NCBI GenBank assembly: GCA_947589675.1
Contig: CANQCI010000017.1
Coordinates: forward strand, 1 to 38,261
Source of the DNA: an uncultured Bacilli bacterium
Lineage (GTDB): Bacteria; Bacillota_I; Bacilli_A; RF39; UBA660
Length of the DNA: 38,261 bases
Direction of reading: 5' to 3'
Position numbers and translations under genes: made by a program. Below are positions 4,871-25,981 of this stretch, in pieces. The notes below the pieces were generated by a model. That model was not told where the DNA came from, did no database searches, and was given only the letters and a program-made list of their open reading frames with translations. Numbering within the stretch: the stretch's first letter is position 1; each line of letters starts with the position of its first letter.

Positions 4871-5776
4871 ATGGATAAAAAGAAATATTGGCTACGAATG
4901 GAAAAAGGATTTTTTAATAATCCATTAATTAAAATTATGTTAAAACAACCAAATGGTTATGAATTAGCAATATTTTATGAACAACTTATGCTTGAAACAA
5001 TAGATACCGTAGGTCATTTAAAATTTAGTGAAACTAAAGCTTACAATGAAGTTTTATTATCTGCGGTATTTGATAAACCATTAGAGTTTGTTAAAGAAGC
5101 CATAAAATTTTTAAAAGACTATGGGGCAATTGAAGTTTTAGAAGATGGAACATACTTTTTAACCGAAGTCGCTAAAATTATAGGTAAGGAATGTGATTCT
5201 GCGGCTCGAGTTAGAATTTATCGAGCCAAAAATAAAATGGAAATTGAAACCAAACACGACAGTAACGAAGAAAGTGTTACTGATGTAACTGATAATTATA
5301 ATTATTTAAACAGCGATGTAACAGATAAAAAAAATGAGTGTAACACTGATGTAACACATGATGAAAATAAATGTAACAGCGATGTAACAAAATGTAACGA
5401 GATAAATAATAAAGAAAAGAATAATAAAGAAGAGAATAATAAAGAAAAGAATATTCTTCATATAACAACAATAACAACAATAACTAAAATAAATAATTTT
5501 GTAACAAAAAACTTTAAACAAGAATTAACTGAATTAGAAAAAGAAAAAATTAAAGAGTGGTTGTCGTTGTTTGATGAGAAAGCAATCTTTTATGCTTTTG
5601 AAAAAGCTGTTTTTAACGGTGTTAAAAAATTTAGTTATGTACAAGGCATCTTAAACAACTGGAAAAATTTAAAATTAACTACTTTTGCCAAAATTCAAGA
5701 ATATGAAAGCAAGGGTATGAGTCATAACGCAAATGTTGCACCGGAGATTCTTCAAGTAGATTGGTTAAATACATAG
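4871..5776 (+). CDS. DnaD-like phage replication initiator (replisome organizer)
   Basis: 301 aa. Residues about 1-120 match the phage replisome-organizer N-terminal winged-helix pattern (YWLRMEKGFFNNPLIKIM ... YGAIEVLEDGTYFLTE). Residues about 120-195 are a low-complexity linker with xDVT repeats every 11 residues and NNKEK/NNKEE repeats. The C-terminal region (about 205-275) is a DnaD/DnaB_2-type domain ending in the signature YVQGILNNW (256-264). Such proteins bind the phage origin and recruit the host helicase and its loader. The repeats in the linker DNA suggest that the origin lies within this gene. No separate helicase or loader gene is visible, so host DnaC/DnaI is probably used. A GGA ribosome site precedes the ATG. 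Confidence 0.85.
   Translation: MDKKKYWLRMEKGFFNNPLIKIMLKQPNGYELAIFYEQLMLETIDTVGHLKFSETKAYNEVLLSAVFDKPLEFVKEAIKFLKDYGAIEVLEDGTYFLTEVAKIIGKECDSAARVRIYRAKNKMEIETKHDSNEESVTDVTDNYNYLNSDVTDKKNECNTDVTHDENKCNSDVTKCNEINNKEKNNKEENNKEKNILHITTITTITKINNFVTKNFKQELTELEKEKIKEWLSLFDEKAIFYAFEKAVFNGVKKFSYVQGILNNWKNLKLTTFAKIQEYESKGMSHNANVAPEILQVDWLNT
5282..5398 (+). repeat. 33-bp-spaced iterons inside the initiator gene, candidate replication origin
   Basis: GATGTAAC occurs at 5282, 5315, 5348 and 5381, each exactly 33 bp apart, about three helical turns. A second series of GTAAC lies at 5340 and 5373 (33 bp apart) with an off-phase copy at 5394, and an inverted GTTAC at 5276. Lambda and several Gram-positive phages carry the origin iterons inside the initiator gene, which is the model here. 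No binding evidence is available. Confidence 0.65.
5405..5449 (+). repeat. Three 15-bp purine-only-plus-T repeats beside the iterons (candidate unwinding region)
   Basis: AATAATAAAGAAAAG, AATAATAAAGAAGAG and AATAATAAAGAAAAG lie head to tail (5405-5449), encoding NNKEK/NNKEE. The stretch has no C on the plus strand and is followed by more A/T-rich DNA up to about 5510. Strand-asymmetric AT-rich DNA next to iterons is the usual place where origin melting starts. Confidence 0.6.
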
Positions 5777-11972: not shown

Positions 11973-12172
11973 AATTTAAGAAAATAATTGATAATCCATC
12001 TATTGAAAATCAGATTAGATTTAAAAAAGAGTGTTTTTATAGAATAAAAAAAGATATGGAAATAAACGGAGATAATGGATTTGGTTATAAAAAAATACAA
12101 CTTGAAAATATGCAAGAGGATATCAAAAAGTTAGAAAATGAAAATAAAAGAATTATTAATAAAAAAAATTGA
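11969..12172 (+). CDS. Small basic helical protein, unknown function
   Basis: 67 aa; its ATG overlaps the preceding TGA (ATGA). It is rich in Lys, Glu and Asn (ENMQEDIKKLENENKRI). The tail overlaps the start of the recombinase gene by 35 bp in another frame, so one of the two starts may be chosen wrongly or the genes are coupled. Confidence 0.5.
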   Translation: MKFKKIIDNPSIENQIRFKKECFYRIKKDMEINGDNGFGYKKIQLENMQEDIKKLENENKRIINKKN

Positions 12173-13529
12173 TAATCATTTAAAAGATATTGCTCCTATA
12201 TTAAATACAAGTGAATGGGGATTAGAGGAAATATTAAAAAGTAATGGAGTAGTATCTTTAGATGATTTACAAAAGTTATTTGATTATTTAGGAATAGAAA
12301 TTGTTGATAACCCAAATAAAATAATTGAATATAAATTGTCAACAAATGTGAATACAAAAATATTTAAATATTATGCCGCATATTGGTTAGAAAAAAAGAA
12401 ATATGAAATAAGAGAAAGCACTTATGCTAATTATGTTAATTTATTTATGTATAATATAATACCTTATTTAGGTGATATACCTTGTGAACAATTTAATAAT
12501 AAATTACTTCAAATGTTTGCGTATTGGTGTAAAGAAAAGGGTGGTAAAGAAAAAAAAGGTATTTCAGAACATTATATAAGAGATTCTTTATTACTTATTA
12601 AATCAGTTATAAGAGATGGACAAGAAGAACATGTATTTCCTGAATTTGCTTTTAAACAAATAAAAATTCCAAAAACAATACAAGTTGAAACAAAAAAACA
12701 AGTTTATAATGAAAAAGAATACAAAAAAATAATAGATTATATTTTAAAAAATATTTCGTCCAAAAGTGTTGGTATTTTATTAGGAATTTATACGGGTATG
12801 AGAATTGGTGAAATATGTGCATTACAATTTAAAGATGTTGATTTTGAAAGAAATATAATAAATGTTAATAAAACCATTCAAAGAATTTATAATCCTTTAG
12901 ATGAATTAGAACCATCAAAGATAATTATTACCCCTGGAAAAACTAAAAATTCAATTAGAGAAATACCAATTACAAATGAAATAATAGAAATATTAAAAAC
13001 AATAAAAAAAGATGAAAGTGATTATATATTAAGTAATTCACATAAACCAATTGAGCCTAGAACATATAGAAAATTTTATAATAGTTTTATGAAGAAAGCT
13101 GGAGTAGAACCTATAAAATTTCATGCTTTAAGACATACGTTTGCTAGTATAAATATTGAAAATGGAACAGATGTAAAAACTATTAGTGATATTTTAGGTC
13201 ATTCTGATATTTCTATTACATTAAAGACTTATACTCATACATCTCAACAGGCAAAATTAAAAGCCATAGAAAAATTTAATTCTATGTTTCAAAATCAAGA
13301 TGAGAAAATTGCTTTTACTAGCAAATATAAAGGAAATATATGCTGTATAAACAAAAGAACCAATAAGCTCGATTTTATTGGTAATATTCAAGAAGTTTCA
13401 AACTATTTAGCAGAACCCAGTAAATATGTATGCGATGTAATAAATAGTATTAAAAATGATGATGTATATAATATAATTCCCCAAATAGAGGGTATAACAC
13501 ATAAGAATGGTGTTTATGTCGGTGGATAA
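12138..13529 (+). CDS. Tyrosine recombinase with an extra C-terminal domain
   Basis: 463 aa. After a helical N-terminal extension (1-65), a SAM-like core-binding domain covers about 70-175 (ESTYANYVNLFMYNIIPYLG). The catalytic domain has Arg222 (TGMRIGE), Lys268/270 (TPGKTKNSIREIPI), His329 and Arg332 (FHALRHT), His355 (ILGHS) and the nucleophile Tyr365 (LKTYTH): all residues are present. Beyond the usual end, residues about 392-463 form a separate domain (GNICCINKRTNKLDFIGNIQ ... KYVCDVINSIKN) that resembles the NUMOD1-type DNA-binding repeat of mobile endonucleases; this resemblance is by eye only. The phage already has a serine integrase, so this enzyme probably serves another function or marks an inserted module. 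The ATG has only a weak ribosome site. Confidence 0.88.
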   Translation: MKIKELLIKKIDNHLKDIAPILNTSEWGLEEILKSNGVVSLDDLQKLFDYLGIEIVDNPNKIIEYKLSTNVNTKIFKYYAAYWLEKKKYEIRESTYANYVNLFMYNIIPYLGDIPCEQFNNKLLQMFAYWCKEKGGKEKKGISEHYIRDSLLLIKSVIRDGQEEHVFPEFAFKQIKIPKTIQVETKKQVYNEKEYKKIIDYILKNISSKSVGILLGIYTGMRIGEICALQFKDVDFERNIINVNKTIQRIYNPLDELEPSKIIITPGKTKNSIREIPITNEIIEILKTIKKDESDYILSNSHKPIEPRTYRKFYNSFMKKAGVEPIKFHALRHTFASINIENGTDVKTISDILGHSDISITLKTYTHTSQQAKLKAIEKFNSMFQNQDEKIAFTSKYKGNICCINKRTNKLDFIGNIQEVSNYLAEPSKYVCDVINSIKNDDVYNIIPQIEGITHKNGVYVGG

Positions 13530-15863: not shown

Positions 15864-16721
15864 ATGACTAAAGAAGAATTAAAGAATAAACTTGATGAAT
15901 TTATAGATTATTTAGAATTAGAAGAGAAGTCAGAAAGAACATTAAAAAGTTATCGTAATGCCATCAATAATTTAATTAATTATATTCCTACTGATGAGTT
16001 TACTTTAGATAAAAAATTATTAATTAATTGGAAAAAAGATATTAAAGATAAAAAAGAGTATAGTTTAAATACTTGTAATCAGTTCATAATTATTGTTAAT
16101 AAGTTTATGAAATATCTTGGTGTTAATGAATTTGTAGACCAATTTAAAATTCAAGAAAAATCCAATTTAGAAGAATATATTGAACCTCAAGAGCATAAAC
16201 GGATGTTAAGATGGGCGAAACAACTTAATATGATGGAAGCTTACATGATAATAAAGGTATTTGCTCATTCTGGTGCCCGTATAAGTGAGTTAAAATATTT
16301 CACGGTCAAGAATTTAGATAGTAATTATATAAAAGTTTATAATAAGCGAAAAGAAAGATACTTAATTATAACTAATGAATTAAGAAGAGATTTAAAGCGT
16401 TATTGTAAACAAAATAAAATAACTGAAAACTATATATTTAGAAGTCCGGAGGATAAATATAAGGATGACCCGAACCGGATGCCGGATAACTCAACTATAT
16501 GGCGATGGCTGAAAAAGATAGCTAAAAAAGCTAAAATTAATCCTGAAAAAATTCACCCTCATGCATGGCGTCATTTATTTGCTAAACAATGTAAAGAAAA
16601 TGGCATTGATTTAGATGAGCTTGCGGATATATTAGGACACAGCAATATCAATACCACGGCAATTTATACTAAAACTTCTAAAAAGGAAAAAAGGTTAAAG
16701 TTAGAGAAAATTAGGTATTAA
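15864..16721 (+). CDS. Tyrosine recombinase, XerC/D-like size
   Basis: 285 aa. A core-binding domain (1-95) is followed by the catalytic domain with Arg139 (SGARISEL), Lys161/163 (NKRKERYL), His233 and Arg236 (HAWRHLF), His259 (ILGHS) and Tyr268 (AIYTK). All active-site residues are intact. GAGGAA lies just upstream of the ATG. Its place, between the middle genes and the late regulator and terminases, recurs in Firmicutes prophages that also have a main integrase. It may resolve phage or chromosome dimers or recombine at another site. It differs in length and sequence from the recombinase at 12138 and is not a copy of it. Confidence 0.9.
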   Translation: MTKEELKNKLDEFIDYLELEEKSERTLKSYRNAINNLINYIPTDEFTLDKKLLINWKKDIKDKKEYSLNTCNQFIIIVNKFMKYLGVNEFVDQFKIQEKSNLEEYIEPQEHKRMLRWAKQLNMMEAYMIIKVFAHSGARISELKYFTVKNLDSNYIKVYNKRKERYLIITNELRRDLKRYCKQNKITENYIFRSPEDKYKDDPNRMPDNSTIWRWLKKIAKKAKINPEKIHPHAWRHLFAKQCKENGIDLDELADILGHSNINTTAIYTKTSKKEKRLKLEKIRY

Positions 16722-20111: not shown

Positions 20112-20133
20112 AAATGAAAAGGAAGTGATTGGA

Positions 20134-21393
20134 ATGGGATTTACTAAAAAAATTATGAATAAATTATTCGTGCGTAATTCAGTTGATATGGATAATTGGA
20201 TTAAATTAGCGGATTTTTTAGGAATAGATAAAAATACAGATAAAGATGTTCGCTCCGAAGCCACTTATTTTGCTTGTTTAAAACTTTTAAGTGAAGCGGT
20301 AGGAAAGTTACCTTTAAAGTTATTAAGGCAAACTGAAAAAGATGGTGTTGTGGAAGCAACAAGCCATAGCTTGTATAATATTGTTCGCAATCGTCCTAAT
20401 AGATATATGACATCAACAACATTTTGGAGTACTACGGAATATTATCGCAATCATTTTGGTAATTCTGTGTCATTAATAAGTGGTTATGGGGAAAAATTAA
20501 CACTTATTCCCTTAGATTTTTCAGAAATTGATATTTGGTATGATGATGCCAAAATATTAAGTGAAATTCCGGATGTTTATTATATTTATAATCATGGGGG
20601 AAAACGGTATTGTTTTAGCAGTGAAGAAGTATTACATTTTAGAACATCAATTTCCGAAGATGGAATTACGGGTTTAAGTGTTAGAAATATCTTAAAGAGT
20701 ACAATTGATGGAAGTCAAAAGGCACAAAACATGCAAAATAGTCTTTATGACAGTGGATTTGTTGCTAAGGCGGTTATTCAATATACAGGTGATTTAAACA
20801 GTAAATCGACGGAAAATTTTTTAGCTAATATTGAAAAATATGCAAAAGGACAAATACCTACATCGAAAAGTTTAATTCCAATTCCTCTTGGTTCACAATT
20901 AACGCCTTTAAATACTAAATTAGGCGATAATGAATTTTTGGAATTAAAAAAATATAGTTCCTTGCAAATTGCATCGGCATTTGGAATAAAGCCTGTTCAA
21001 ATAAATGATTATTCAAAGTCAAGTTATGCTTCGAGTGAATCGCAAAACTTGGCTTTTTTAGTGGATACATTGTTATTTATTTTGAAACAGTATGAAGAAG
21101 AATTAAATTATAAATTATTATCTCAAGATGAACTAAAAAAGGGTTACTTTTTTAAATTTAATTATGGCATGCTTTTAAGAGCTGATATGAAAACCCAAAT
21201 AGAAAGCCTTACAAAAGCTGTCCAAAACTTCCTTTATACGCCGAATGAGGCAAGGGCTTTTTTAGATAAGCCGGCGGTTGACGGGGGCGATGTTTTAATC
21301 GGGAATGGTTCCACGATAAAACTTGACCAAATAGGATTGCAATATTCGCAAAATTATAATAATTCGCCTAATACTGAGGGAGGTGATGAATAG
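20134..21393 (+). CDS. Portal protein (HK97 family)
   Basis: 419 aa from the ATG at 20134 (GGAAGTGATT upstream; an in-frame GTG lies inside that site). Contains the portal pieces ACLKLLSEAVGKLPLKLLR, LYNIVRNRPN and the later ASAFGIKPVQINDYSKSSYAS. It forms the ring through which DNA enters the head. The gene order TerL-portal-protease-capsid is the HK97 order. GGGAGGTGATG at its end serves the next gene. Confidence 0.95.
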   Translation: MGFTKKIMNKLFVRNSVDMDNWIKLADFLGIDKNTDKDVRSEATYFACLKLLSEAVGKLPLKLLRQTEKDGVVEATSHSLYNIVRNRPNRYMTSTTFWSTTEYYRNHFGNSVSLISGYGEKLTLIPLDFSEIDIWYDDAKILSEIPDVYYIYNHGGKRYCFSSEEVLHFRTSISEDGITGLSVRNILKSTIDGSQKAQNMQNSLYDSGFVAKAVIQYTGDLNSKSTENFLANIEKYAKGQIPTSKSLIPIPLGSQLTPLNTKLGDNEFLELKKYSSLQIASAFGIKPVQINDYSKSSYASSESQNLAFLVDTLLFILKQYEEELNYKLLSQDELKKGYFFKFNYGMLLRADMKTQIESLTKAVQNFLYTPNEARAFLDKPAVDGGDVLIGNGSTIKLDQIGLQYSQNYNNSPNTEGGDE

Positions 21394-22200
21394 GTGAAAA
21401 AATTTTTTGAGTTTAAAAATATCACGCAAAACACAGCTGATTTATTCATCTATGGTGAAATAGTTCAAGAAAAGTCTGTTGACTGGTGGACGGGTGAAGA
21501 AAGTGATACAGATGTATCTATTATGGATTTTAAAGAAGAACTTGAAAAAATAGGCAATGTTCAAACTTTAAATATTTATATTAATTCCCCAGGTGGTGAT
21601 GTTTTTGTAGCATCAGCCATGATTAGTATGCTTGAAAGAAAGAAACAATCAGGAACAACTATAAATGCTTATGTAGATGGTGTAAGTGCTAGTGCGGCAT
21701 CATTTTTAATGTGTGTTGCGGATAACATTTATATGTACAAAAATTCGGTTGTAATGATTCATAAACCAATGAGTTTTGCGTATGGTAACGCCAATGATAT
21801 ACAAAAGGTTATAGATACTCTTGATAAAATCGAAAGTGCAACTATGCTACCGATGTATATGAGTAAAGCCAAGATTAGTGAAGATGAATTAAAAGAATTT
21901 ATTAATAATGAAACTTGGTTTTCGGCACCGGAAATGGAAGAATATTTTAATGTAACAGTTTTAAATGAAGAAAAAGTGGCGGTTGCCTCAATTTCAAATG
22001 AATTGTTTAAAAAATATAAAAATATTCCTGAAAATATTCGCAAAGTTTTGAATAATTTCCATCAAAAACCAAATTTAGATAATACTTTAAAAGATTATCA
22101 AGATGATGTGGTTGTTAATAAAAACGAAGAAAATATAAAAACAAGATTAAGCCTGATTAAAGGCTTTTTAATTGCCGAAAATTTGAAAGAGGGTGAGTGA
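21394..22200 (+). CDS. Head maturation protease, ClpP/S14-like
   Basis: 268 aa from a GTG at 21394 with GGGAGGTGATG upstream. ClpP-like fold: INSPGGDV (63-70), catalytic Ser100 in DGVSASAAS and His123 in VMIHKP. It processes the prohead, most likely removing the N-terminal coiled-coil segment of the capsid protein. It ends in TGA overlapping a GTG of the next frame. A helical C-terminal tail (LSLIKGFLIAENLKEGE) may act as a scaffold. Confidence 0.93.
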   Translation: MKKFFEFKNITQNTADLFIYGEIVQEKSVDWWTGEESDTDVSIMDFKEELEKIGNVQTLNIYINSPGGDVFVASAMISMLERKKQSGTTINAYVDGVSASAASFLMCVADNIYMYKNSVVMIHKPMSFAYGNANDIQKVIDTLDKIESATMLPMYMSKAKISEDELKEFINNETWFSAPEMEEYFNVTVLNEEKVAVASISNELFKKYKNIPENIRKVLNNFHQKPNLDNTLKDYQDDVVVNKNEENIKTRLSLIKGFLIAENLKEGE

Positions 22201-22405: not shown

Positions 22406-23527
22406 ATGAACAAAAGAATGCGAGAAATAAAGGAAAGAATGGAAATTTTAAATAAGGAAGCGGTAGAATTTTATAATTCTAATGATTTCGAAAATGCGGA
22501 AAAAAGAATTAATGAAATCGAAAACTTAGAAAAAGAATATAAAATAGCTGAAAAATTATTTAAAACAGATAAGGAAACAGTTGAAGAAGAAATGCCTAAA
22601 AATACTGTTGATAAAAAAATTGTGGCATTTGCAAATGGCATCAGAAATGCGGCTACAAAAATGAATGAAACTACCGGAACTGAGGGTGGTTATACAGTGC
22701 CAGAAGATGTTGTTACCGATATTGAACATTTACGGGAAGCAAAAGAGTCATTACAAGATTTAGTAACAGTTGAAAATGTAACGACTATGTCCGGTAAAAG
22801 AACCTATAAGAAAAGAAGTCAAATGACTGGTTTTTCCGAAGTTGGTGAAGGTAAAAAAATTGGTGCTAAAGCTACACCACAATATGCATTAATGGAATAT
22901 AAAATCAAAAAGTATGCTGGTATTTATCCAACTACTAATGAATTATTAGAAGATAGTGATGCTAATATTTATAATGAACTTACCAGTTGGATTGCTGATG
23001 AAAGTCGAGTTACAAGAAATAAATTAATAATTAATGCTATTAAAACTAATACTGAAACTGATTTAAAGGATTTAGATGGAATTAAAAAAGCATTAAATGT
23101 TACTTTAGGTGCGGCATTTAAAGCAACATCAAAAATTATAACTAACGATGATGGATTACAATATTTAGATACTTTAAAAGATGAAAAAGGTAACTATTTA
23201 TTACAACCAAGTGCCAGTGATCCTATGAAATTAGTTTTATGTGCTGGGGCTAATACAATTCCTGTTAAAGTATTCCCAAATGCTGATATGCCAACTGATG
23301 GTGAAAAAGTTCCTTTCACAATTGGGGATTTAAAAGAGGGGATTAAATTATTTGATAGAAAGAGAATTAATATTTTAGCCTCTAATACAGCGGTTGTAGG
23401 TAGTGATGAAGATGTTTTAAATGCTTTTGAAGAAGATTTATCATTATTTAGAGCTATTGAACGTGAAGATGTTGAAGTTCGTGATAAAGATGCGTTTGTA
23501 AACGGCTATATCACTGTTACACCCTAG
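22406..23527 (+). CDS. Major capsid protein, HK97 fold
   Basis: 373 aa from the ATG at 22406 (AAGGAGAGTG upstream). Residues 1-70 form a charged coiled coil (RMREIKERMEILNKEAVEFY), the delta domain that serves as scaffold and is normally removed by the protease. The body has GTEGGYTVPEDVVTDIEHLR, then YPTTNELLEDSDANIYNEL and, near the end, DAFVNGYITVTP. It ends CCC TAG, and the +1 frame continues without any start codon as an Ig-like domain (see 23523-24224), so a longer 605-aa form is expected in a minority of subunits. Confidence 0.95.
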   Translation: MNKRMREIKERMEILNKEAVEFYNSNDFENAEKRINEIENLEKEYKIAEKLFKTDKETVEEEMPKNTVDKKIVAFANGIRNAATKMNETTGTEGGYTVPEDVVTDIEHLREAKESLQDLVTVENVTTMSGKRTYKKRSQMTGFSEVGEGKKIGAKATPQYALMEYKIKKYAGIYPTTNELLEDSDANIYNELTSWIADESRVTRNKLIINAIKTNTETDLKDLDGIKKALNVTLGAAFKATSKIITNDDGLQYLDTLKDEKGNYLLQPSASDPMKLVLCAGANTIPVKVFPNADMPTDGEKVPFTIGDLKEGIKLFDRKRINILASNTAVVGSDEDVLNAFEEDLSLFRAIEREDVEVRDKDAFVNGYITVTP

Positions 23528-23528
23528 C
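23519..23528 (+). promoter_or_regulatory. Probable +1 programmed ribosomal frameshift site (ACA CCC TAG)
   Basis: The last capsid codon CCC (23522-23524) is followed by the stop TAG. If the proline tRNA slips forward one base it still pairs with CCT (23523-23525) and translation goes on AGC ACG CCC into the open frame. Listeria phage PSA is a known example of +1 frameshifting at a proline codon before a stop in structural genes. Confidence 0.75.
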
Positions 23529-24224
23529 ACGCCCGATGAGGGCGATATCGGGACTGTAACAGTTAATATAACTTCTGGTAATTTAAAACTATCAGAAGCG
23601 GTAACCGATAAAGAAATAGGTTCTGTAACTGTCGATGGCGGAACAGAACCTTATTCTTATGAATTAACTGGTACAGACGCTGATAAGTTCAAAATAGAAG
23701 AAACTAAAGTTAAAATAAAAGAAACTTTAACGGAAGCTAAAACTTATACAGCAAAAGTAAAGGTTACTGATAAAAATAGTAAGGAAAAAGAGTCTGATGA
23801 ATTTAACTTAATTGTTGAAGACCCTGAAATAAAAGTAAGTATACCAAGTAATGAAACTCAATTATTAGGTGAAAAGACTGTTGCGGATTTATGCGATAAT
23901 GTAAATCTTGAAACTGATGAAGTAACTGGGGCTTTAAATTATGTTGAAAATTGGGCTGATTTTTCAAATAAGGAAGATGAACAAACTGGAAACTTCTTAC
24001 CATTGTATTTTGAGGAAGCGAAAGGACAAGCTAAGGGAACAGTTAAGTGCGAACTTAAAGGAACTGGGGCTAAAGTTAAAAAGCCAGTTGCGGTTGACCC
24101 TAAAGATGGCTTGATTGTTTTCCAAATTCATGACAATGATAATACAATTGAAATTACAAGCGATGGTAAAGATACTAAAACACTTACACTAAGTAGTTTA
24201 GATTTAAAAAAAAAGAGTGGTTAA
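23523..24224 (+). CDS. Ig/cadherin-like C-terminal extension of the capsid protein, made by +1 frameshift
   Basis: The frame is open from the frameshift site to TAA at 24222-24224, adding 232 residues, with no ATG, GTG or TTG for the first 160 codons. The first domain has GSVTVDGGTEPYSYELTGTD and TYTAKVKVTDKN, the pattern of cadherin/Ig-like beta-sandwich modules. The second half (about 23830-24215) has TVKCELKGTGAKVKKPVAV. Such domains on capsids are thought to bind surface sugars or mucus. A separate protein starting at the TTG 24003 would lack both a ribosome site and the first domain, so I prefer the fusion. Confidence 0.82.
   Translation, partial: PSTPDEGDIGTVTVNITSGNLKLSEAVTDKEIGSVTVDGGTEPYSYELTGTDADKFKIEETKVKIKETLTEAKTYTAKVKVTDKNSKEKESDEFNLIVEDPEIKVSIPSNETQLLGEKTVADLCDNVNLETDEVTGALNYVENWADFSNKEDEQTGNFLPLYFEEAKGQAKGTVKCELKGTGAKVKKPVAVDPKDGLIVFQIHDNDNTIEITSDGKDTKTLTLSSLDLKKKSG
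24209..24215 (+). promoter_or_regulatory. Candidate -1 frameshift heptamer A AAA AAG
   Basis: A AAA AAG lies in frame with the Ig-like extension, three codons before its stop. Slipping back one base leads to GAG TGG TTA ACA GAT AGC GTG and the open frame ending at 24346. No clear downstream pseudoknot was identified, so this may also be a simple homopolymer error. Confidence 0.45.
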
Positions 24225-24232
24225 CAGATAGC

Positions 24233-24346
24233 GTGAAAACATCAATAAATAAAATATTAGGTGAAGATACTTCTACTGAACAAGATATTGAGGAAAGTGA
24301 AGCCGATAATATTTTAACAAGAATTGTTGGAGGTGATGCTGAATGA
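24233..24346 (+). CDS. 37-aa ORF, possibly the tail of the capsid fusion
   Basis: GTG at 24233 opens VKTSINKILGEDTSTEQDIE and the frame closes at 24344-24346, overlapping the ATG of the next gene. No good ribosome site precedes the GTG. Read from the -1 slip at 24215, the same frame adds EWLTDS in front, 43 residues in all. Either it is translated alone or it is a second C-terminal addition to the capsid fusion (646 aa total). Confidence 0.5.
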   Translation: MKTSINKILGEDTSTEQDIEESEADNILTRIVGGDAE

Positions 24347-24936
24347 GTGTTGTAAGTGAAAAATTAAATCGTATTGAAAGTGCAACCAATACGATAAGGA
24401 CTAAAGTTGGGGCTAGTGAAGTTAATACTATTGAAGAAGTTGCGGATATGGTAAAAGATATACCTATTTTTTATTTCGATGGTGATGTTAATAAAGAAGA
24501 AAATAAAACCATGTTTGACGATATTTATAATAATTATATTAAATTTAAAAAACCATTTTTGCTTGCTGGAACAAATCCTGCAAAAGAAAACAGTTATTTA
24601 TTTGATTGTCATTCTTTTTTAAATATTGGGTATATTCTTTTTTCTTCCATAGTCATTTTACGAACTTCAACAACAGAAAAAAAAGGATTAAAAGTTGTTC
24701 CAATTTCTTATGATTTTATTCAATATAAGTTTCATGAAAAGAAAATTGAATACGTAGCTTCTAATAATGCATATATGTTAGATGTAAATTCGATAGACTC
24801 CATAGTTGGTATAAATAATACTACTGAATGGACTCCAACCAAAGATTACGGACTTGTTCATAAAAAATATGTAGATGATATAGTTGGTAACATCAATAAT
24901 GTACTTAATACATTAGTTACGGTAAGTGAGGAATAA
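24343..24936 (+). CDS. Head-fibre-like protein with adaptor N-terminus
   Basis: 197 aa, GGAGGTGATG before the ATG at 24343. The N-terminus (EKLNRIESATNTIRTKVGAS, then TIEEVADMV) is a short helical adaptor also used by the next gene. The C-terminal end has EWTPTKDYGLVHKKYVDD, a motif of phage fibre collars, often followed by a coiled coil. I infer a trimeric fibre or decoration attached to the capsid. The middle domain is not recognised. Confidence 0.65.
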   Translation: MSVVSEKLNRIESATNTIRTKVGASEVNTIEEVADMVKDIPIFYFDGDVNKEENKTMFDDIYNNYIKFKKPFLLAGTNPAKENSYLFDCHSFLNIGYILFSSIVILRTSTTEKKGLKVVPISYDFIQYKFHEKKIEYVASNNAYMLDVNSIDSIVGINNTTEWTPTKDYGLVHKKYVDDIVGNINNVLNTLVTVSEE

Positions 24937-24937
24937 T

Positions 24938-25981
24938 ATGGCAACGATAGAAGAACAATTAAATCAATTAAAGCAAGATAAGACTGTTTTAGTTCAAAAT
25001 TTAGTTGAAAAGGGAATTGAAGCATCCGATGATGAAACATTTACAGAATTAGTGCCTAAAGTTGCGGAAATACAAAGTGGGGGAAATATAGAAGAGTATA
25101 TTAGTAGTACGTCAGATGAAAAAGAAATTGCTGAAAGATATGTATCAAAACAATTTGCTTATAGAATAAAAAAGCTGCCCGATTTAGATTTTTCTAATTT
25201 GGTAGATGAAAGGTGTTTACAACATTTATTTCAGTCGCTTCCAAAAATAAAATCGTTGCCTAATATTAAATTAGGAAATATTTTAAAATTAAATTTAGCA
25301 AATATTTGTTCTCAATGTGAAGACTTACAAGATATATCAAATTTGGTTAATGCAATAAAAGATAAAAAAATTTTAAATTTGACTAGTGCTTTTACTAATT
25401 GTAAGAATTTAGATTATTCATTTTTTAATGAATTAGATACAGATGAATTAACTCAAATGAATAATACTTTTTTAAATAGCAACTTAGCAAATATTCCTTT
25501 ATTTAATACAGAAAATGTAATAAATATGACTGGGGCATTTTCAAATTGTAATGAATTGACAACAATTCCACAATTTAATTTAGCAAAATGTGAAAAAGTT
25601 GATAGTATGTTTAACGGTACTAATAATTTAGAGTCTTTACCTGAACTAGATTTTAGTTCTGTAAAAAATTTAAATAATTTTTTAAACAATAGCAAACCAA
25701 ATTTAACATCTTTAGGTGGCTTTAAAAATTTAGGCTTAAATTATACTACTAGAAGTAACAATAATAACTACTATAAATTAGACTTATCATATTGTTCGGC
25801 TTTAACGAGGGAAAGTGTACTTAATGTCTTCAATGGCTTAGCTGATTTAAATACGGTATATGCTGACACTCTTTATACCCAACAAATAGTATTAGACCCA
25901 ACTGTAAATTCTTTATTACAGCCTGAGGATATAGCAATAGCAACTGATAAAGGTTGGAATATTACTACTCAATCACATTAA
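24938..25981 (+). CDS. Surface-exposed LRR-like (BspA-type) head protein
   Basis: 347 aa from the ATG at 24938, one base after the previous stop, with GTGAGGA upstream. After the same kind of adaptor (LNQLKQDKTVLVQNLVEKG), repeats rich in Leu/Asn follow: LPDLDFSNL, INMTGAFSNCNELTTI, VDSMFNGTNNLESL, LDFSSVKNLNNFLNNS, LDLSYCSAL. This is the BspA/DUF285-like leucine-rich pattern seen in gut-phage virion proteins. The ligand is not known; a role in binding the host or the mucosa is plausible. Placed between capsid and connector genes, it is likely on the head. Confidence 0.7.
   Translation: MATIEEQLNQLKQDKTVLVQNLVEKGIEASDDETFTELVPKVAEIQSGGNIEEYISSTSDEKEIAERYVSKQFAYRIKKLPDLDFSNLVDERCLQHLFQSLPKIKSLPNIKLGNILKLNLANICSQCEDLQDISNLVNAIKDKKILNLTSAFTNCKNLDYSFFNELDTDELTQMNNTFLNSNLANIPLFNTENVINMTGAFSNCNELTTIPQFNLAKCEKVDSMFNGTNNLESLPELDFSSVKNLNNFLNNSKPNLTSLGGFKNLGLNYTTRSNNNNYYKLDLSYCSALTRESVLNVFNGLADLNTVYADTLYTQQIVLDPTVNSLLQPEDIAIATDKGWNITTQSH

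Follow-up and report, generated by a model that had tools for sequence, protein, structure and literature searches.

A candidate portable +1 frameshift cassette appending predicted Ig-like arms to phage capsid proteins

The major capsid gene of a prophage in an uncultured member of the Bacilli ends in CCC TAG, and the +1 frame beyond it stays open for a further 232 codons. This raises the question of whether these codons form a separate gene, are the remains of a broken fusion, or are added to the capsid protein during translation. We conclude, with a probability of about 0.88, that a programmed +1 ribosomal frameshift would give rise to a minor form of the major capsid protein with an extended C-terminus. 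The window (the whole stretch of 38,261 nt analysed here) is contig 17 of a 1.46-Mb metagenome-assembled genome (MAG), ~95% complete, and every close relative with a named source is a rabbit-gut MAG. The features of the capsid region are as follows.

20125-21393: portal gene, preceding the protease and capsid genes.
21394-22200: Clp-type head protease gene, directly upstream of the capsid gene.
22406..23527, + strand: major capsid protein of the HK97 type, 373 aa, C-terminus ...GYITVTP and stop (PF05065, E 7.5e-34; phrog_10, E 2.9e-62).
23519..23527, + strand: shift site ACA CCC TAG, with a proposed slip of the peptidyl-tRNA-Pro from CCC (23522-23524) to CCT (23523-23525).
23526..24224, + strand: extension in the +1 frame, 232 aa (codons 23526-24221, stop TAA 24222-24224).

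The window carries the marks of a prophage, namely a serine recombinase, repressor-type regulators, integrases, portal, protease, connector, tape measure and tail genes. A single contig thus holds one serine recombinase (556-2163, - strand) together with two tyrosine integrases (12138-13529 and 15864-16721). Between the capsid gene and the head-tail connector lie a DUF285 (BspA-like repeat) gene (24926-25981) and a further gene (24343-24936), an unusual place for them, and they possibly code for further surface proteins. At the position of the major tail protein, 27557-28111 matches phrog_2175 ('protein with Ig domain'), which may represent a second Ig-like surface on the same phage.

The capsid ORF closes with GTT (23516-18), ACA (23519-21), CCC (23522-24) and TAG (23525-27), as the preliminary description had read it. 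Skipping one base gives the product ...TVTP-STPDEGD..., and the peptide spanning the capsid/extension junction in the +1 reading is ...TVTPSTPDEGDIGTVTV...; when CCCT is taken as one step, capsid plus extension reads through with a single frame change, at the junction. None of 2000 base shuffles of the extension stretch stayed open. The reported absence of an early start in the 232-residue frame also held, the earliest ATG, GTG or TTG being a TTG at codon 160, inside the second of two modules.

23535..23828, + strand: module 1, residues 4-101, cadherin/Ig-like beta sandwich (AlphaFold pLDDT about 95).
23829..24221, + strand: module 2, residues 102-232, beta-rich, phrog_31690 (profile E 2.6e-10; model pLDDT 88.6).

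Module 1 is confidently modeled as a cadherin/Ig-like sandwich, and VIA-align superimposed it on the Fat4 cadherin 8egw with Z 9.1 and 2.2 A over 91 residues. Module 2, whose residues 123-225 match positions 2-102 of the 107 in the phrog_31690 profile, is modeled with confidence as beta-rich, and fold searches with it gave no confident relative (best Z 5.6). The suggestion that the extension resembles cadherin/Ig modules therefore stands for about residues 4-101 and is unproven for residues 102-232. By alignment, module 2 is the part common to nearly all relatives, in which it occurs alone or behind module 1; one relative has module 1 alone (G015) and another two Ig-like modules (G036). Judging from the fold and from precedent (PMC6669499, PMC13370021), adhesion to glycans or cells would be the likeliest role, and precedent likewise suggests that the arm is displayed at the surface.

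Searches with the extension covered 146 related genomes, and those with module 2 covered 386 genomes from the family and a set of 85,000 species genomes; the 38 loci that module 2 retrieved from the latter all belong to 'Lapin' (rabbit) MAGs labelled Bacilli or Clostridia. At 36 sites (the window and 35 relatives, with 35 distinct junctions), which are related by descent, an ORF ends in CCC-TAR and a homologous domain is open in +1. The proposal of a +1 frameshift at CCC-TAG adding an Ig-like extension to the capsid protein is thus supported by comparison of relatives: the slip site and the open frame are kept in related prophages, and none of the relatives with CCC-TAR sites has a decayed +1 frame. 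The extensions are under purifying selection, with a median pairwise dN/dS of 0.20 overall; the window extension gives dN/dS 0.18-0.27 against the four full-length homologues.

The final sense codon is CCC in 36 of 36 sites, preceded by a Thr codon (ACA, ACT, ACC or ACG) in 26 and by a Ser codon in four. In the 30 upstream ORFs used to count Pro codons, CCC is the terminal codon of all 30 and is absent from the 333 internal Pro codons (CCA 246, CCT 86, CCG 1, CCC 0); over the loci it makes up 5% of Pro codons. The stop that follows is TAG at 28 sites, TAA at eight and TGA at none. TGA closes 21 of the 195 ORFs in the loci, yet is absent from the 36 shift sites, so perhaps release-factor choice matters.

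The preliminary description missed a conserved hairpin immediately downstream of the stop, which we propose as a putative stimulator of frameshifting.

23530..23544, + strand: putative stimulatory hairpin, stem CGCCC/GGGCG, loop GATGA, -10.1 kcal/mol, starting 2 nt past the stop.

The GCCC/GGGC core that the window shares with its relatives starts 3 nt after the stop, and the window adds a fifth pair; its hairpin is stronger than those of synonymous randomisations (z -3.2, p 0.003). Among the relatives, the hairpin lies 2-4 nt past the stop and falls into three sequence classes: GCCC-GAxxA-GGGC (class I, including the window), GCCAC..GTGGC or GCCACC..GGTGGC (class II), and GCCC(TC)..GGTAA..TTACC..(GA)GGGC (class III, in distant homologues). 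A hairpin occupies the same position in 29 of the 30 class I and II sites and in all six of class III, and synonymous randomisation shows folding stronger than is needed to encode the peptide (p <= 0.014) in 20/30 and 4/6 of these, respectively. The excess was not significant at ten class II sites, nine with p 0.06-0.22 plus G033, which retains CCC-TAG and has nearly lost the hairpin (-1.9 kcal/mol). Median folding energy is -8.0 kcal/mol at +1 sites, against 0 to -3.1 where the domain is attached otherwise. Sliding the partner strand of the class II stem lowered paired cells from 86% to 26-49%. Covariation between columns of this stem was not significant by shuffling, and the case for the structure therefore draws on its position, on the replacement of one class by another, on codon choice and on the controls. 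Rfam gave no match in the window.

Searches beyond these genomes returned little. The class I signal pattern found four matches in viral_contigs (L047-L050), all followed by frames of 22 aa and by a GC hairpin plus T run; these short frames and terminator-like hairpins mark them as chance matches. When a looser pattern was run on 395 genomes from the class, most of the matches looked like chance. The extension and module-2 queries found no close relative in IMG/VR, a human faecal phage query there found only a near-copy of that phage, and a phage collection yielded three distant matches only.

The same domain is also attached in other ways. At eight loci it follows an A-run in the -1 frame (L065, L066, L068, L072, L074, L078, L100, L110), and at eight others it is in frame (L069, L071, L073, L076, L081, L109, L113, L119), in four of these across an A-run (L069, L071, L073, L076). 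L111, L125, L126 and the partial L118 were left out of the junction classes. Attachment through an A-run to other capsid and tail proteins, in -1 or in frame, makes up a second, parallel type of joint, which may work by slippage in either direction. In the human faecal phage MT835616 (L045, about 4990-5010) the domain follows a tail-like protein in -1, at a TTTTAAAA heptamer located by eye; L127 likewise represents a human gut phage with the domain after a tail-like protein at this -1 heptamer. An A-run also occurs near the end of the window extension.

24203..24215, + strand: TTTAAAAAAAAAG run (A9), seen in the sequence; similar A-runs join the -1 class relatives.

A -1 slip at TTTAAAAAAAAAG would append about 43 residues (to 24345), EWLTDSVKTSINKILGEDTSTEQDIEESEADNILTRIVGGDAE, so a second frameshift there is possible; no homologue of these residues was found among the fetched loci.

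The +1 joint follows at least eight unrelated PHROG families: the major head families 422, 10, 544, 1328, 267 and 212, family 909 (listed as major head, near head-decoration families) and the major tail family 88. Between class I members with unrelated upstream proteins, nucleotide identity rises from ~0.2-0.4 to 0.95-1.0 exactly at ACN-CCC and remains high through the stop and the hairpin; in class II the step at ACN is less sharp, with CCC invariant. Over about 270-700 nt, extensions borne by unrelated capsids share 82-89% identity. Conversely, the capsid genes of L116 and L079 are 89% identical (last 90 nt) and their extensions 35%, and L117 and L082 are 79% identical upstream and 35% downstream. 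A cassette on unrelated carriers, together with arm swaps on near-identical capsids, indicates that this site is where recombination has joined capsids to arms. It thus appears that the domains, together with their slip site, stop codon and hairpin, form a single portable cassette found on many unrelated head and tail proteins.

These patterns bear on whether a real frameshift might be incidental, that is, a chance frame whose slip was rescued later and whose arm has little function, a view already put forward for Ig domains of phages at large. The presence of the same module in frame and in -1 would agree with this, as would a 2016 review that regards the choice of frame as plausibly due to chance (PMC5009743). 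However, the domain moves from one unrelated protein to another in company with the slip site, stop and hairpin, and where the domain changes, homologous capsids retain the slip site; given both, independent rescue of each case is not expected, and we consider this explanation improbable. We lean instead towards ACN-CCC-TAR and its hairpin being a portable, self-contained display cassette, in which frameshifting has been selected for a low dose of adhesin and is not the repair of a chance insertion.

Less probable still, the extension could be a gene in its own right, lying downstream of the capsid stop and expressed through reinitiation or coupling. Databases do annotate similar stand-alone ORFs of 128-151 aa, and codon 7 or 8 of class II extensions is a GTG, but this GTG coincides with the 3′ arm of the hairpin. 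In addition, five relatives (L070, L079, L084, G036 and G015) lack ATG, GTG and TTG throughout the extension, which agrees with the preliminary description, where a proper start in relatives would have spoken against frameshifting, and the window offers none before the TTG in module 2. A separate gene would also leave the conserved CCC, the +1 register and the hairpin unexplained. An assembly or sequencing error, or a mutation breaking an original in-frame fusion, could point to the single in-frame relative reading ACACCC-AGT (L081), but is in practice refuted by the register shared among 35 distinct junctions, by purifying selection on the extension and by a hairpin that is found at +1 joints and missing at the in-frame one. 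L081 itself, a major tail protein in which ACA-CCC-AGT runs in frame, the T of the stop being absent and the hairpin gone, is a natural control for the +1 joint and its hairpin.

Programmed +1 frameshifting could proceed as follows. The only tRNA-Pro found has the anticodon UGG, although the ~95% completeness of the genome and a partial tRNA of untyped identity (C15:1-68) make a second tRNA-Pro possible. A tRNA-Pro(UGG) should decode CCC more poorly than CCU, consistent with slippage when a slow stop occupies the A site. The rare CCC of ACA-CCC-TAG would be decoded by this tRNA, with the slow stop in the A site and the hairpin 2-4 nt downstream favoring a pause, and the tRNA would re-pair with CCU, one base on. 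The ribosome would then read the cadherin/Ig-like module and, after it, the phrog_31690 module. The majority of subunits would terminate at TAG, and a fraction would display the arm at the surface of the capsid, where its likeliest role would be that of an adhesin binding glycans of the gut or of bacterial surfaces. Gut phages would have attached this cassette, correctly in register, to the C-termini of many unrelated head and tail proteins. The sequence comparisons establish a conserved site, an open frame, selection, a hairpin and exchange at the joint; we infer slippage itself, its rate, the tRNA step, stimulation by the hairpin, display at the surface and adhesion, and the extended capsid form would be expressed in virions.

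Such an arrangement would offer a natural and compact means of displaying a domain at low level on the shell of a phage, and gut phages may share adhesins in this way, through an exchanged frameshift cassette. Some orphan ORFs after capsid genes are probably misannotated extensions. The family phrog_31690, listed as 107 aa and of unknown function, is found here at the end of probably frameshifted capsid or tail proteins.

The kind of event is already known, from PSA, SPP1, the lactococcal 936 phages and Ig-domain frameshifts. The Listeria phage PSA had been named as a +1 precedent, rightly so: its cps and tsh genes (AJ312240) both read ACA-CCC-U, the same slip sequence, and a +1 shift on major capsid and tail proteins gives a longer minor form in PSA (PMC5009743), as it would in the window family. 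PSA cps has a downstream RNA structure, a reported pseudoknot (PMC5009743). It differs in shifting 7 codons before the stop and in its extension of about 53 residues, without evident resemblance to that of the window, and the PSA signal is not described as a cassette common to unrelated capsids. PSA tsh uses CCC-TGA, unlike the 36 sites, all with TAG or TAA. In SPP1, gp17.1* arises by a +1 shift at CCCUAA that adds an FN3-type domain, at a ratio of 3:1 (PMC6316719); CCC before the stop and the direction are shared, whereas the protein is that of the tail tube and not a capsid, and a shared cassette is not described in the parts of the source consulted. The MTP-TpeX protein of the lactococcal 936 group has an identical shifty stop, CCC.UAG, its extended tail protein has been detected on Western blot (PMC4759559), and the extension binds host cells (PMC6669499); there, however, it is a carbohydrate-binding module on the tail tube, in one phage group. 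The Ig-like domains that frameshifting adds to phage virions (Fraser et al. 2006, cited in PMC5009743), among them those of T3 and A2, are likewise minor C-terminal extensions of major structural proteins; T3 and A2 use -1 shifts, whereas the window family would use +1, with the signal travelling with the domain. Why Ig-like domains are added by frameshifting has been left open, with chance suggested, and the cassette family makes the question testable, since signal and domain travel together and natural in-frame and -1 controls exist. Relative to the literature searched, which included few subscription papers, what is new is a portable cassette that brings along its stop, its slip site and its hairpin.
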